Part shown: positions 2,180 through 6,815 of the stretch, in pieces
Numbering within the stretch: position 1 is the first letter of the stretch
Layout: the number at the start of each line of letters is the position of its first letter
Made by a program: the position numbers and the translations under genes
Notes under the pieces: generated by a model
Databases searched by the model: none
Told to the model about the DNA's origin: nothing
Seen by the model: the letters and a program-made list of their open reading frames with translations, nothing else
Origin: Clostridia bacterium
Lineage (GTDB): Bacteria > Bacillota > Clostridia > Oscillospirales > Acutalibacteraceae
NCBI GenBank assembly: GCA_017534365.1
Contig: JAFWCS010000412.1
Location: forward strand, 1-7,234
Direction: 5' to 3'
Length of the DNA stretch: 7,234 bases

Positions 2180-2214
2180 ACAAAACAGCAAAAAGCCGGT
2201 ATGTAAAGGTGCTC

Positions 2215-2255
2215 TGAACAAGTCCAGTAAAAACGGACAATAGAAAAAAGCAGCC
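2215..2255 (+). repeat. Left terminal inverted repeat (IRL) of the IS
   Basis: Starting TGAAC, this end aligns to the reverse complement of the right end. Seventeen of the first 25 positions agree (TGAAC, TCCA, one T, and ACGGACA), followed by a shared TA, an A-run and CAGCC. The agreement defines the element boundary at 2215. The match is imperfect, as is usual for IS3-family ends. Confidence 0.8.
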
Positions 2256-2292
2256 TCCTATGGTAGAATGAAAAAAACTACCATGGGAGGTT
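2252..2292 (+). promoter_or_regulatory. Hairpin sequestering the orfA Shine-Dalgarno
   Basis: CCTCCTATGGTAG (2254-2266) pairs over all 13 positions with CTACCATGGGAGG (2278-2290), with one U-G wobble at 2259/2285. Two further pairs (2253/2291 wobble and 2252/2292) can extend it. The 11-base loop is A-rich. The 3' arm contains GGGAGG, the ribosome-binding site of orfA, so RNA containing both arms would hide it. This matches the logic known for IS10 and IS50, where read-through RNA from neighbouring genes is prevented from making transposase. There is no U-run after the stem, so it is not an intrinsic terminator. Confidence 0.75.
2261..2269 (+). promoter_or_regulatory. Putative extended -10 promoter of the IS
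   Basis: TGG followed by TAGAAT fits the extended -10 form (TGN plus a hexamer matching TATAAT at 5 of 6 positions). No good -35 hexamer is seen 16-18 bases upstream, which extended -10 promoters can tolerate. Initiation about 7 bases downstream, near 2276, would place the transcript start in the loop of the overlapping hairpin. The motif is seen directly; promoter activity is inferred. Confidence 0.5.
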
Positions 2293-2297
2293 TCATT

Positions 2298-2633
2298 ATG
2301 GCAAGAAGATATAGTCACATACAGAAATATGAAAAGGAAATCATAGAAAGAATAGAAAAAGGAGAAACACTTAGAGAAATCGGGGAAGCATATGGGTTCA
2401 CCTATCAACAGATGCGAGGTTTTAAGACTCGATATAATGAGAAAGAACGAAAGAGAGCAGCAGGAATAGCAATTAAAAAGAAAGGCAGACCACCGAAGGA
2501 CTATCAAGTAAGTGAAGAAGACAAGATTGCGCAGCTTCGGTACATTATTGACCGAAAAGACGCCAAAATCAAATCGCTGGAAATGGAGAATGAATTGATG
2601 CGGGATTTTCTCTCGCTCACAGGAAGGAAGTGA
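2298..2633 (+). CDS. IS3-family OrfA, helix-turn-helix protein
   Basis: A 111-residue protein starting MARRYSH. The ATG at 2298 is chosen because GGGAGG (2285-2290) sits 7 bases upstream; an ATG at 2268 in the same frame lies in the hairpin loop, has no ribosome-binding site and is rejected. Residues about 24-46 (TLREIGEAYGFTYQQMRGFK) form a helix-turn-helix expected to bind the IS ends. Residues about 60-66 (KKKGRPP) are basic and AT-hook-like. Residues about 73-105 are a charged, leucine/isoleucine-spaced helix resembling the leucine-zipper oligomerisation region of IS3 OrfA proteins. The gene is strikingly A-rich and Lys/Glu-rich compared with the flanking genes. Its TGA overlaps the GTG of orfB. 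In the family, OrfA alone often regulates transposition and the OrfAB fusion is the transposase. Confidence 0.88.
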   Translation: MARRYSHIQKYEKEIIERIEKGETLREIGEAYGFTYQQMRGFKTRYNEKERKRAAGIAIKKKGRPPKDYQVSEEDKIAQLRYIIDRKDAKIKSLEMENELMRDFLSLTGRK

Positions 2634-3484
2634 GGACAAGTGTAAAATATCTGGTGATCTATCGTCACAAAGAGAAATATACGATCAGCGAAATGTGCAG
2701 ATTCTTTGACGTGTCAAGAAGCGGCTATTACGACTATGTAAAACGCATGGAGCTGCCGGACCGGGACCTCCCGTTGGCTAAGCGGATAGAAGCCTGTCAG
2801 AAAGAAACGAATCAGACTTACGGCTATCGGAGAGTCCAGCTTTGGCTTGACCGACAAGGAATCCACCGCAATCCGAAGACGGTCTTGCGTGTGATGCAGA
2901 AATACAATCTGCTTTCTGTTGTCAGGAGAAAAAAATATCAGCATTACGGCGATTGCCTGCACCGTTATCCCAATCTGTTGAACAGAGATTTTCACGCAGA
3001 TCGGCCGAATCAGAAATGGGTTACGGATATTTCGTATATTAAGACAGGTCAAGGATTTCTGTATTTATCCATCATCAGAGATTTGTATGACAACAGTATC
3101 GTCGCATACAAAACAGCCACCAGACAAAACATTCAGCTTGTTTTAAGGACGATCAGAGAGGCGAAGAGAAAGGAAAAGGTCACTGCAGAGCTGCAACTCC
3201 ACAGTGACCAAGGCTTTCAATACACATCGCAAGCATATTTCCGCCTGACACAATCATACGGCATAACGCCGTCAATGTCAAGACGTGGAAACCCGTATGA
3301 CAATGCTTTGGCTGAAAACTTTTTCTCAATTCTGAAAACTGAGTGTATTTATCGGGCTCGGCCGCGCACCTATGAGGAGGCGCGCCTCCTCATAGGTGAA
3401 TACATCCACTTCTACAATTACCAGCGCATCCAACTCAAAACAAAACTGACTCCGATGGAGTATCGAAGCCAGTTCGTTGCTTAA
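2630..3484 (+). CDS. IS3-family OrfB, DDE transposase
   Basis: A 284-residue DDE transposase catalytic subunit. The N-terminal part (about 1-100) has the HTH_21-like region (YGYRRVQLWLDRQGI and KTVLRVMQKYNL). The RNase-H-like core (about 120-280) carries the triad D133 (WVTDISYI), D193 (LHSDQGFQYTS) and E229 (YDNALAENFF), with 35 residues between D193 and E229, the IS3 spacing. MSRRGNPYDNA is the typical pre-Glu motif. The start is GTG, forming a GTGA overlap with the orfA stop; AGGAAGG at 2621-2627 is a close-set ribosome-binding site, and the next ATG would remove conserved N-terminal sequence. The frame is -1 relative to orfA and open back only to 2594. A 32-bp perfect palindrome lies within the coding sequence at residues about 246-256. 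The gene appears intact. Confidence 0.92.
   Translation: MRTSVKYLVIYRHKEKYTISEMCRFFDVSRSGYYDYVKRMELPDRDLPLAKRIEACQKETNQTYGYRRVQLWLDRQGIHRNPKTVLRVMQKYNLLSVVRRKKYQHYGDCLHRYPNLLNRDFHADRPNQKWVTDISYIKTGQGFLYLSIIRDLYDNSIVAYKTATRQNIQLVLRTIREAKRKEKVTAELQLHSDQGFQYTSQAYFRLTQSYGITPSMSRRGNPYDNALAENFFSILKTECIYRARPRTYEEARLLIGEYIHFYNYQRIQLKTKLTPMEYRSQFVA
3367..3398. repeat. 32-bp perfect palindrome inside orfB
   Basis: CACCTATGAGGAGGCG (3367-3382) is followed at once by its exact reverse complement, CGCCTCCTCATAGGTG (3383-3398). The bases beyond (G3366 and A3399) do not continue it. It has no spacer, so in RNA it would fold with a small central loop; in DNA it could extrude a cruciform. It is translated as part of the conserved YEEARLLIGEY region near the transposase C-terminus. 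No T-run follows, so it is not an ordinary terminator. Confidence 0.95.
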
Positions 3485-3509
3485 TCTATTATCCCATTTC
3501 TACCATTTA

Positions 3510-3548
3510 GGCTGTTTTTGTACTGTCCGTACAAAATGGAGCAGTTCA
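3510..3548 (-). repeat. Right terminal inverted repeat (IRR) of the IS
   Basis: Read on the - strand it begins TGAAC at 3548 and matches the left end as described there, ending in CAGCC. Within it, TTTTGTAC (3516-3523) and GTACAAAA (3529-3536) form an 8-bp stem with a 5-base loop. That extra symmetry is absent from the left end. It starts 25 bases after the orfB stop. Confidence 0.8.
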
Positions 3549-3687
3549 CGAGTGGGAATGCAGTCTTTTTTGATATCCTTTACTTGCACAGTCTTTTATA
3601 GGCAATTCAATCTTTTCCAAAATGGAATCAAGGCAGACAAACCGGACGAAGGCCGCTTTCCGAGCGAAACCGTTGCGGCGCGCCGAT
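3549..3687. other. Junction region between the IS and the GH32 gene
   Basis: This 139-base segment holds no supported gene. Its IS-proximal ~90 bases are AT-rich, while the part next to the GH32 stop is GC-rich. The only hairpin of note is TTCCA-AAA-TGGAA (3615-3627), a 5-bp stem too weak to call a terminator. No GC-rich stem followed by a T-run is seen on either strand, so termination of the GH32 transcript is unexplained. Confidence 0.6.
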
Positions 3688-4755
3688 TCACAGCAGCGCA
3701 GTGTAGATTTCTTCGCCTCCGTTAACAAACACCTCAAGAAAACCCTCGTCGCGCAGCAACTTGAGGCAGTTGATTCTCCCTGTATAAACCACGTCTTCAC
3801 GCCCCGCGCGCTGAATGCGAAAGCCGCTATGCGTTTGCCTGAGCGCAGGGTCTTGATCTGCCAGAAGGTGTGTGACCTCCGTTACGGGAAACGCACGAAG
3901 CCTGCCGTTTTCAAGGGTGACCTCACACGGCAGGGACATACAGCCGATGTTTCTCTCTTTGTACCCTGCATAGTTCCAACCCGGAATCCATGATATCAGA
4001 ATGGCTCTGCCGCTCTGATCGCTAAAGATCTGACCGGCATATCTGTCGGGGCCTTTGTCAACCTCACTTTCGACTTCTGCGATAAAGCGACCGTTTTTGA
4101 AGGAGCCTGCCGCAAGCGAAAAACAGTGCGCGTCCTCTCTGCAAACCGATGCTGAAAGCAGGTATTTATCTGCGAGCTTAACAAAAGAGGGGCACTCGGC
4201 AAATTTCGCATTTTGCCACGCGCGCAGCACGCCGTGGTATTCCCAGTGAAGCAAATCCTCACTCTCATAAAGCAGCAGCACAGCCGTCTGCTTCTCCCGG
4301 TTGCCCGAAGCCATCACACACCAATATTTACCGTCGGCAAAGCACACGGCAGGGTCTCTGAAATCCGGAGAGCCGTCGGGGGGGAAGGATGCGATCACGG
4401 GGTTGCCGCTGTATTTCTCAAAGTGGATTCCGTCAGAGGAAGAAGCGACGCCGACAGCCTGCTTTTCGCCTTGAACGCAGGCATAAAAAAGGTAAAGGAC
4501 GTCTTCTTTCACAATCGCCGTGCCTGACCAGCAGCCGTCCCTGTCATAAGCGCGGTCGGGAAAAAGCGCAACAGGCAGCTCCTCAAAGTGAATAAAATCC
4601 TTTGTTATTGCGTGTCCCCAGTGCATGCTTTCATGCCACGGGGTTTCAAAATGAGGCGAATGCTGATAAAAAATATGATAATATCCCTTGAACTGAACGA
4701 GCCCGTTCGGGTCGTTGATCCAACCCTTTGAGGGCCTGTAATGATAGGTTGTCAT
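3688..4755 (-). CDS. Glycoside hydrolase family 32 beta-fructosidase
   Basis: A 355-residue enzyme with all three GH32 catalytic motifs: WINDPNG (residues 12-18, nucleophile D15), FRDP (132-135, transition-state stabiliser D134) and ECPS (187-190, acid/base E187). HESMHWGHAI (41-50) and CWSGTA (75-80) are further conserved five-blade propeller motifs. The propeller spans about 1-290. The C-terminal beta-sandwich is reduced to roughly 55 residues but still carries the LEVFVNGGEEIYT motif, so the protein looks complete though shorter than the usual 430-490. There is no signal peptide, so it acts in the cytosol; by family it hydrolyses terminal beta-fructosyl bonds (sucrose, sucrose-6-phosphate or short fructans), and the exact substrate cannot be read from sequence. 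The ATG has GGAGG 5 bases upstream (4761-4765). It follows the TIM-barrel gene by 84 bases on the same strand, suggesting an operon. Confidence 0.93.
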   Translation of the reverse strand: MTTYHYRPSKGWINDPNGLVQFKGYYHIFYQHSPHFETPWHESMHWGHAITKDFIHFEELPVALFPDRAYDRDGCWSGTAIVKEDVLYLFYACVQGEKQAVGVASSSDGIHFEKYSGNPVIASFPPDGSPDFRDPAVCFADGKYWCVMASGNREKQTAVLLLYESEDLLHWEYHGVLRAWQNAKFAECPSFVKLADKYLLSASVCREDAHCFSLAAGSFKNGRFIAEVESEVDKGPDRYAGQIFSDQSGRAILISWIPGWNYAGYKERNIGCMSLPCEVTLENGRLRAFPVTEVTHLLADQDPALRQTHSGFRIQRAGREDVVYTGRINCLKLLRDEGFLEVFVNGGEEIYTALL

Positions 4756-4839: not shown

Positions 4840-6741
4840 TCACAAGCCCCGGTCCGCTGCGCTGACGTCCGATCCGGTCGCTTCAAATCCGGCAAACGCG
4901 AAGGGCGCAATATCCGTAAGATACACCGTGTCTCCTTCAAGCCTTCCATCGCAGTTGATAAACGCAACAGCTGCATAGGATCTGCTGAGCTGAACCGCCG
5001 GGGAGAACACGGTATCGGCAAAGAAATTCCACAAGCCGACGGTGATGGATCCTTCGTTCTCTTTGCACTGTATGTAGAGCGCGGGATTGCCGTAAACGTA
5101 CGCAGGGAGTTTTTTGCCGCCGAGCCATTCGATCTGTTCGGCAAACTGCGCGCTTCTCGCGTAGTGCTTGAGCACGTGGTCGGCAGACGACCGCGTGTTG
5201 ATATTGAGAATGAAAAAGCGCTGTTTCTCCGCGTTCTCATAGCGGAAAGAAAAGGGTAAATCGCCGAGCGGCGTATGCATATCGCTGCAGATTTCCGCGC
5301 CGGCCTTGAGCGCGACGTCATAGACCTCAGCGCCGAAGGCGAGTATTTTGTTGCCGTTGTTTCTGAAGCGTTCCATATCGCCGCTTGTCTTTTTGCCGAT
5401 CCTCCGGATGCCGACGTCAATGCCGCGGTCCATCAGGATTTCAGCCGCGGCGATGTCCAGAATCAGACCGTGATTCAGCGCATCCGCCGGCAGGGCCCGC
5501 GCGTTTTCATCAAAGACGATCCCGCAGACCCCGGCGCCTTCATACGTGGTCGGGATCGTGTTGTGGGACAGCGCCCGCGCTGCCTTCGAAAAGAAAAGAT
5601 CCGAAATATCCGCCTCGGTATTGACCGCGGTCGGCAGGACCATTTGAGAAACTTTCTGCATCGATTCATAAACGCGCACGCCGGTGTTCTTTTTGCCGGA
5701 AAAGAAGCGTTCGATTTTCTTGTACGTTTCCCTGTTGTGTTCATGGAACCCGGCGTAGCCCGTTTCATAGTCGGCATTTGCGTGATAATCAATGCCGTAT
5801 TTTAAAATGCCGTCTGTGCAGCCGCTGGCGCGGATCGCCGTGTCAAATCCCTCAAGGTAACTTGCAGGGCAGCTGCTCCGCGGGCGGGGATACGGGTCAC
5901 CCTCCGCCATGATCTCGATCTCGCCGTTTCTTGTCCACACGCTTTCCATTCGCTCGAGCTCTACGACGTCCTGCAGCGCGTTGCCCCAATTCCTGTTGAC
6001 CGCCCAATAAGGCGCTCCGATGAGCCGGACGAACGGTTTCGTGCTGCCCGCAAGAATCGTTGCAAGCTCGAACGCGTTCGTGCCGTCGATATCCCATGAA
6101 CTCATGCAGGCGCAGAAGCCGACGCGGATGGACGGATCGACCGCATCGACGGCCGCTCTGACTGATCGGGCAAAGCTTCTGAACAGGTCGCCGTTGACCC
6201 GGAGATACGCGTCTCTGTATTTGTTCGGGCCGCCCGAAATGATGTGCTTTTCAAGCTGCGCTCTCGTGGATCGTTCGCCTGTGATCGCATGGATCAAAGC
6301 GATGTGGCCGTCGCACAGGCAGGCGGTCGTGCCTTCCAGAAAGGCATATCGGAAATCATCGTCAAACTGGATCAGATCAACCCCGCATGCCGCGATGTCT
6401 TTGATGTAATCCGCGGCAAATGCTACAAACCGCGCATCCGACGGGCACATATTGCTTTTGAGCTCCGTGCCGGAAATGGAGCGCATATTGCGAAACGATT
6501 TGTTCTGGCTGAGCATGAACGCCCAGATCCATGCGCCCACTTCAAGCCCGTTTTCTTTGAAAAAGCGGCAATTGTCGCGCAGCGCGCGCATGGCAGCCGC
6601 GCGTTTCTCCGGATCCGGCTCATACTGATCCAGCGCAAGAAAAACACGCTGCGCATCAAATCTTCTGATTTGTTCCAGGATCTTTTCGCGCCCCTGTTCT
6701 TTCAGGCTGCTGTTCAGAACGGGCACAGATACTTTATACAA
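4840..6741 (-). CDS. Putative TIM-barrel glycosidase-like protein, unassigned family
   Basis: About 633 residues, no signal peptide or membrane segment. I do not recognise a named family; the architecture suggests a clan-A-like glycosidase distantly related to GH42. Residues about 1-350 look like a (beta/alpha)8 barrel, with GVDLIQFDDDFRY (120-132, three consecutive Asp at a strand end) and MAEGDPYPRPR (278-288), whose E280 sits where a late-strand catalytic Glu could lie. Residues about 355-480 resemble an alpha/beta domain (GLILDIAAAEILMDRGIDVG, 425-444) like the second domain of GH42-type enzymes, and about 485-620 form a beta-rich C-terminal domain ending IAPFAFAGFEA. The TTG start at 6741 is preferred because AGGGAG (6750-6755) is 8 bases upstream; a GTG at 6750 in the same frame overlaps that site. 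The GH32 gene downstream suggests sugar breakdown. Catalytic role and residues are inferred, not shown. Confidence 0.75.
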   Translation of the reverse strand: MYKVSVPVLNSSLKEQGREKILEQIRRFDAQRVFLALDQYEPDPEKRAAAMRALRDNCRFFKENGLEVGAWIWAFMLSQNKSFRNMRSISGTELKSNMCPSDARFVAFAADYIKDIAACGVDLIQFDDDFRYAFLEGTTACLCDGHIALIHAITGERSTRAQLEKHIISGGPNKYRDAYLRVNGDLFRSFARSVRAAVDAVDPSIRVGFCACMSSWDIDGTNAFELATILAGSTKPFVRLIGAPYWAVNRNWGNALQDVVELERMESVWTRNGEIEIMAEGDPYPRPRSSCPASYLEGFDTAIRASGCTDGILKYGIDYHANADYETGYAGFHEHNRETYKKIERFFSGKKNTGVRVYESMQKVSQMVLPTAVNTEADISDLFFSKAARALSHNTIPTTYEGAGVCGIVFDENARALPADALNHGLILDIAAAEILMDRGIDVGIRRIGKKTSGDMERFRNNGNKILAFGAEVYDVALKAGAEICSDMHTPLGDLPFSFRYENAEKQRFFILNINTRSSADHVLKHYARSAQFAEQIEWLGGKKLPAYVYGNPALYIQCKENEGSITVGLWNFFADTVFSPAVQLSRSYAAVAFINCDGRLEGDTVYLTDIAPFAFAGFEATGSDVSAADRGL

Positions 6742-6815
6742 TCTTGTCACTCCCTGAAGACCATAACAAAAAAGAGGAAGGTCTCTGTATTGTTTTCATG
6801 ACCGATGCTGCCCTG

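Follow-up and report, generated by a model that had tools for sequence, protein, structure and literature searches.

The insertion sequence and its surroundings

The window, that is the whole stretch of 7,234 nucleotides analysed here, contains an insertion sequence (IS) of 1334 bp on the plus strand (2215..3548), flanked by CTC and CGA and hence without target duplication. Its left neighbour is a histidine phosphatase-like gene with its end at 2179, and its right neighbour a GH32-like gene that ends at 3688 on the minus strand. Two overlapping frames were found within the IS: orfA (2298..2633, plus strand), encoding a helix-turn-helix protein with an HTH_28 match that falls under the HTH_28 cut-off, and orfB (2630..3484, plus strand), which lies in the -1 frame and encodes an IS3 transposase. 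The assignment to the IS3 family is based on the rve integrase core of OrfB and its match to the IS3-family transposase model NF033516 (299 bits, cut-off 160), on the frame arrangement and on terminal inverted repeats that begin with TG, the tips being TGAAC...GTTCA. A second copy was not found in the same genome, for which the assembly is fragmented and 71% complete, and at E up to 1e-5 neither the plasmid nor the phage collections contained a relative of OrfA. The Rfam 15 models gave no match in the whole window at E up to 1. Further along, a 636-aa protein is encoded on the minus strand at 4843-6750, for which neither Pfam nor NCBIfam gave a match at E up to 0.001.

With OrfA as the query, 80 loci were obtained from named genome contigs. 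A total of 79 were read, and L080, whose match begins at residue 20, was never used. One relative with a duplicated start (L031) entered the fold and stem-shape counts with a shifted start and was then excluded from the left-end counts; its right flank was kept among the 39 right flanks described below.

The GTG start of orfB overlaps the orfA stop as GTGA, and this overlap was found in all 73 readable relatives, six further ones being short or odd at this position. IS3 elements usually produce OrfAB by a -1 frameshift at an A-rich slippery site. Because of the GTGA overlap and the absence of an A6 run from the 25 junctions listed, the sequences suggest that orfA and orfB may be linked by translational coupling instead. 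The overlap is preceded by a GGAAGGAAG-like stretch (window 2590-2633). Within orfB, a perfect palindrome of 30 bases (ACCTATGAGGAGGCG / CGCCTCCTCATAGGT) occurs at 3368-3397. It is present in many of the relatives listed, with matching changes in both arms in L023, L040, L049 and L063, and is missing from a Ruminococcus-like group (L033, L055).

The left-end hairpin and its conservation

A hairpin lies between the left terminal repeat and orfA. Its 5' arm (2254..2266, plus strand; CCTCCTATGGTAG) consists of the anti-Shine-Dalgarno sequence CCTCC plus TATGGTAG, and its 3' arm (2278..2290, plus strand; CTACCATGGGAGG) contains the predicted orfA ribosome-binding site GGGAGG (2285-2290), seven bases ahead of the ATG at 2298. 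The stem has 13 pairs with a single wobble (T2259-G2285) around a loop of 11 nt (2267-2277), and two extra pairs (G2253-T2291 and A2252-T2292) would extend it to 2252-2292. The region 2214-2360 folds with -33.1 kcal/mol (z -6.0), a value equalled by none of 200 shuffles, and the pairing described in the first-pass annotation, a 13-bp stem with one wobble, two more possible pairs and the orfA GGGAGG in its 3' arm, was confirmed.

The hairpin was observed to be conserved throughout the relatives. In all 80 left ends, those of the window and of 79 relatives, the z of the fold is below -3 (median -7.3), and the loop ranges from 5 to 13 nt among the regular stems, irregular stems being found in three relatives (L024, L032 and L093). 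The distant relatives L011, L012 and L014, with OrfA only 35-40% identical, keep the hairpin with a different sequence. A Shine-Dalgarno hairpin score of at least 18 was obtained for 75 of 78 relatives, whereas among candidate gene starts of the flanking host DNA 3 of 92 reached this value.

Covariation was analysed in an alignment of 62 of the 80 left ends, the 18 excluded being L031 and near repeats judged by eye. Among these 62 rows, 98.3% of the cells pair as against 91.3% after shuffling, whereas slid registers gave far lower pairing (35-57%). Double changes occur at eight of the 13 pairs, with 45 double-change cells compared to 6.3 in the shuffles, so that the covariation of the two arms proposed in the first-pass annotation as a check was indeed found. 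Examples of such arm swaps are CCTCC/GGAGG for CCCCC/GGGGG and TATGGTAG/CTACCATA for GATGTA/TACATC, and changes in the anti-Shine-Dalgarno are matched by changes in the ribosome-binding site. A quick OrfA tree requires at least nine pair-type changes for pair 3, seven each for pairs 5 and 7, and eight for pair 13; many of the compensatory changes fall on weakly supported branches, and among the positions listed only 1 to 3 independent pairs are on well-supported ones. At pair 11, a change was not followed in the partner. A second alignment (A2) contains 12 second-strand readings, repeated copies and one MarR-family gene, and no conclusion was built on it.

Promoter motif and access to the ribosome-binding site

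The extended -10 motif TGG-TAGAAT (2261..2269, plus strand; TGG at 2261-2263, TAGAAT at 2264-2269) spans the 5' arm and the loop, with the first three bases of the hexamer in the arm and the last three in the loop. TANAAT was found in 78 of 79 left ends, with TGn ahead of it in 73, whereas TGnTANAAT occurs in none of the 42 right ends that were located among the 79 relatives, the remainder being truncated at contig ends or not recognised. The -35 region (TAGAAA) is poor, with 9 of 12 for the promoter in all, and the scan gave promoter-like matches in a number that is within chance, which leaves the conserved extended -10 as the only part that counts. The earlier placing of the promoter in the 5' arm therefore holds as far as this motif is conserved and restricted to left ends, with the reservations that the hexamer is only half within the arm and that the -35 is poor. 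A promoter across the circle junction, formed by TTGAAC / GACAAT over the joined ends, was also considered as a candidate from sequence; the flanking T that it requires is present in just 35% of the left flanks, and the resulting RNA would include the entire left hairpin.

Transcription starts as a rule at the seventh base after the -10 hexamer. By this spacing the IS would start its own RNA at about 2276 (plus strand), inside the loop, and the predicted leader in the relatives has a median length of 22 nt. Folding of the long RNA, which contains both arms, and of the short RNA from the predicted start gave a median unpaired probability of the ribosome-binding site of 0.000 and 0.544, respectively, with median opening costs of 14.5 and 1.6 kcal/mol. 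The short RNA is predicted to be the more open one in 78 of 78 cases and exceeds an unpaired probability of 0.5 in 52 of these; L032, which is without a -10, was omitted from this comparison. In the window, the site is about half open in the short RNA (0.53), where a weak local fold is present.

The arrangement resembles that of IS10 and IS50 in that the ribosome-binding site is in the 3' arm and the 5' arm lies upstream of the predicted own start. In our view the left hairpin very probably acts to block translation of the transposase from incoming RNA: RNA entering from outside would fold both arms and hide the orfA ribosome-binding site, while RNA started within the hairpin would lack the 5' arm and leave orfA readable. 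The switch suggested in the first-pass annotation is thus well supported by the sequence, with a start site that is predicted and a silencing of read-through RNA that would follow from the fold.

The T-rich spacer

The spacer between the ribosome-binding site and the ATG (TTTCATT; 2291..2297, plus strand) might serve as a terminator tail or pair with an A-tract upstream. The T fraction is 0.76 over the spacers of the ISs (n = 79) compared to 0.31 in host spacers (n = 45), with runs of at least four T in 89% and 11%, respectively, and it stays T-rich while its sequence varies. These features fit an explanation in which the hairpin is mainly an intrinsic terminator of incoming sense RNA, with the promoter inside so that the own RNA of the IS cannot form the stem; termination would then add to, or replace, the occlusion of the ribosome-binding site. 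We hold this to be possible, though rather doubtful, as the main role of the hairpin. Of the left hairpins, only 20 of 79 have a positive terminator score, as against 37 of 42 antisense hairpins at the right end, and the left hairpin is missing from the terminator scan of the window, probably owing to its loop of 11 nt, since the scan covers loops of 3-8 nt. In addition, the T-rich tail fades in L011, L012 and L014, which retain the hairpin, and it may be engaged in pairing with the upstream A-tract, as a G in the tail goes with a C upstream (Fisher p 0.0012, not corrected for kinship). Since positive scores are confined to the 20 hairpins and the T-tract is reduced in the distant relatives, termination by the left hairpin is considered a possible addition to the occlusion of the ribosome-binding site and not its main function; as such the tail would contribute a termination effect on incoming RNA.

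Alternatives at the DNA level

The palindrome could also be a DNA operator: with OrfA or the transposase bound to the two arms, the promoter lying between would be repressed, and folding of the RNA would be a by-product. This alternative has a basis in the relation of the 5' arm to the right end of the IS. The motif ATGGTAG inside TATGGTAG recurs at the right end, an A-tract is common to the right ends, and ATGG or GATG was found in 30 of 42 right ends. Among 35 ISs, the octamer of the 5' arm scores on average 6.14 against the right end of its own IS, 5.22 against those of other ISs and 3.89 after shuffling, so that the transposase or OrfA probably binds here; moreover, the covariance model of the left end also matched L141, a MarR-family gene that has a palindrome of this kind. 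On the other hand, the octamer of the 3' arm shows no resemblance to the right end (3.62), loops that vary from 5 to 13 nt in regular stems are not easily tolerated by a dyad operator, and the covariation of the anti-Shine-Dalgarno with the ribosome-binding site is difficult to reconcile with it. The deviations from Watson-Crick pairing are also strand-specific: the 37 such cells comprise 24 G-U, four A-C and nine others, whereas a DNA dyad should yield G-U and A-C equally, and selection therefore seems to act on the plus-strand RNA. The operator is thus an improbable explanation of the palindrome as a whole. Because the 5' octamer matches the right end of its own IS and the 3' octamer does not, the 5' arm seems to hold a motif of the terminal repeat, with the 3' arm adapted to it, and given the resemblance of this inner motif to the right end, the 5' arm probably serves in transposase binding as well.

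The A-tract and, in many ISs, the inner ATGGTAG are common to both ends, yet it is extremely improbable that the arms merely belong to the terminal repeats and pair with the ribosome-binding site by accident, in view of the compensatory changes in the arms and the restriction of the extended -10 to left ends. Moreover, anti-Shine-Dalgarno-like C-rich runs occur in 15 of 42 right ends, whereas nearly all left ends show the pairing with the ribosome-binding site.

The right-end hairpin

A second hairpin, followed by a T-rich tail, was found on the minus strand within the 3' end of orfB (3443..3475). It is present in all 42 right ends with the tail TTTTGT or TTTTGTTTT, and the stem and U-tract have the form of an intrinsic terminator, with a score of 4.9 in the window. 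The 37 right ends with positive scores noted above have them on the minus strand, while on the plus strand there are none among the 42. Read as minus-strand RNA, the outer ten pairs contain 70 G-U and no A-C, the hairpin being within coding sequence. This hairpin is likely, judging from these features, to halt antisense RNA arriving from the right neighbour, and it would constitute a second device that stops RNA from the other side.

Insertion sites

The composition of the host flanks follows a common pattern. In the left flanks (n = 71), an A-tract at -24 to -15 is followed by a G+C-rich arm at -13 to -5, and in the right flanks (n = 39) a G+C-rich arm at 4 to 13 precedes a T-tract at 14 to 24. 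For the 31 copies with both flanks, pairing between the two flanks of the same copy averages -15.1 kcal/mol compared to -9.4 kcal/mol for mismatched flanks, a difference matched by none of 2000 permutations, and 11 of the 31 are within the best 5% of the mismatched pairs. Of the 31 sites, 12 have a positive terminator score on one or both strands once the flanks are joined; the target rule thus applies to the set as a whole, and about a third of single copies show it clearly. A flank match of 3-4 bp, the length of the target duplication in the IS3 family, was found in 13 of the 31. As for the neighbouring genes, with orientation taken from the longest stop-to-stop frames and not from annotation, the left neighbour faces the IS in 50 of 68 cases, 30 of these 50 ending 17-50 bases away, and the right neighbour does so in 23 of 31. 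Considering flank pairing and neighbour orientation together, many copies seem to split a terminator and to face read-through from one or both sides.

In the window, the left flank from the A-tract (2190..2214, plus strand) and the right flank ending in the T-tract (3549..3571, plus strand) would be the presumed first and second halves of a split host terminator. Both tracts are present, and the signal in this copy is weak, with a duplex of -10.8 kcal/mol that is equalled by 31% of the mismatched flank pairs. The lack of a visible terminator upstream may be due to the IS having split one. From this lack and the shared orientation of the upstream operon, the first-pass annotation had taken read-through as a real prospect; across the relatives it becomes more than that, because many of them occupy loops of terminator-like host hairpins, while for the window copy itself the signal adds little. 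Insertion into the loop of a terminator would take away the barrier that separates orfA from the upstream gene, and this choice of target would explain the exposure to read-through and with it the need for protection. A prediction from this is that the upstream operon would not simply be prolonged into the transposase gene by the insertion.

Distribution of the left-end hairpin

With a covariance model of the left end, matches at E up to 1e-3 were found in 81 of 391 genomes of the class, the E-values being rough, compared to 12 of 391 for OrfA itself at E up to 1e-10. At least seven matches, the window included, lie directly before an IS3 match and at least four directly before a match to PF00872, the family of Mutator/IS256-type elements. 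L125, L126 and L134 are of this type by Pfam PF00872 and L127 and L132 by likeness. Not every match is an IS, since L141 is a MarR-family gene; its palindrome, around 1716-1781, surrounds a consensus-like promoter and ribosome-binding site.

Among 30 PF00872 loci, some hairpin was found in 19 and a score of at least 18 in 14, with a finder looser than that used for the host controls. In a sample of 30 IS3-family loci, seven reached this score, the window included, and 12 were without a candidate start in the scanned stretch. Start hairpins of the same kind were seen among the Mutator/IS256-type elements (L125-L127, L132, L134 and L145-L174), several with TATAAT or TAAAAT in the loop (L160, L164, L165 and L169). 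Three other IS3-family loci (L181, L190 and L199) have a strong start hairpin of quite different sequence, in which the 5' arm is possibly the terminal repeat itself.

The Mutator/IS256-type elements, from the same bacterial class, resemble the IS3-family element in having a -10-like box in the 5' arm or loop, the ribosome-binding site in the 3' arm and a T-rich spacer, whereas their transposase family is unrelated, and their hairpin is therefore convergent or was exchanged. Taking the sequence evidence together, we see an even chance that these ISs form a clostridial clade that resides in loops of host terminators and is walled on both sides by strand-specific RNA devices, namely a left hairpin of about 40 bases that combines terminal-repeat motif, promoter, anti-Shine-Dalgarno and terminator, and an antisense terminator in the 3' end of orfB, with the left device having arisen again in Mutator/IS256-type elements. 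The T-rich tail, the motif shared with the right end, the antisense terminator and the target are additions to the first-pass annotation.

Comparison with known systems

IS10 and IS50, whose transposases are unrelated to that of the IS3-family element, are protected from outside transcription in that read-through RNA folds and hides the transposase start, whereas their own RNA is without the 5' arm. In the present element, the -10 box straddles the 5' arm and the loop, and the same arm contains a motif common to the other end of the IS. The passages of PMC4265352 and PMC5006887 available to us do not state the protection of IS10 and IS50.

According to the passages available of PMC3196728, IS200 of Salmonella has two stem-loops, one of which terminates impinging transcripts while the other occludes the ribosome-binding site. 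These are separate structures, whereas here a single hairpin with the promoter inside would do both, and the antisense terminator at the right end is a feature of the IS3 element, unlike IS200. In ISPpu9 of Pseudomonas putida, a structure in the 5' leader is reported to control transposase expression and the copies reside in palindromic (REP) sites; it differs in its long leader, with the translation start at +245, and in its two small RNAs (PMC8450116, in the passages available). A potential ribosome-binding site within the left terminal repeat is described for IS1447, of an IS3-family group in Firmicutes, which uses transcriptional slippage at an A-run; a start hairpin is unmentioned in the passages available (PMC6211511). 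Palindromes are also the targets of IS elements that insert into REP sequences (PMC1525189, in part), whereas the target here is terminator-like and variable in sequence, with the shape A-tract, arm, arm, T-tract.

The principle of protection is already known, from IS10 and IS50 and from IS200 as far as the latter is described in the passages of PMC3196728. A search of PMC full texts, covering titles, the beginnings of abstracts and some passages, with most subscription papers outside its range, gave no report for IS3 elements of such a leader or of targeting to terminator loops. Within the scope of this search, the fusion of a terminal-repeat motif, a promoter and a cover of the ribosome-binding site in one hairpin is new, together with its compensatory evolution across an IS3 clade, and likewise the terminator-loop target and the antisense terminator. 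The likely cause can also be tied in, in that an element inserting into terminators exposes itself to the transcription of its neighbours. An idea known from few elements thus gains natural compensatory variation over dozens of related elements, and with it a compact natural part in which a promoter lies within its own insulator.
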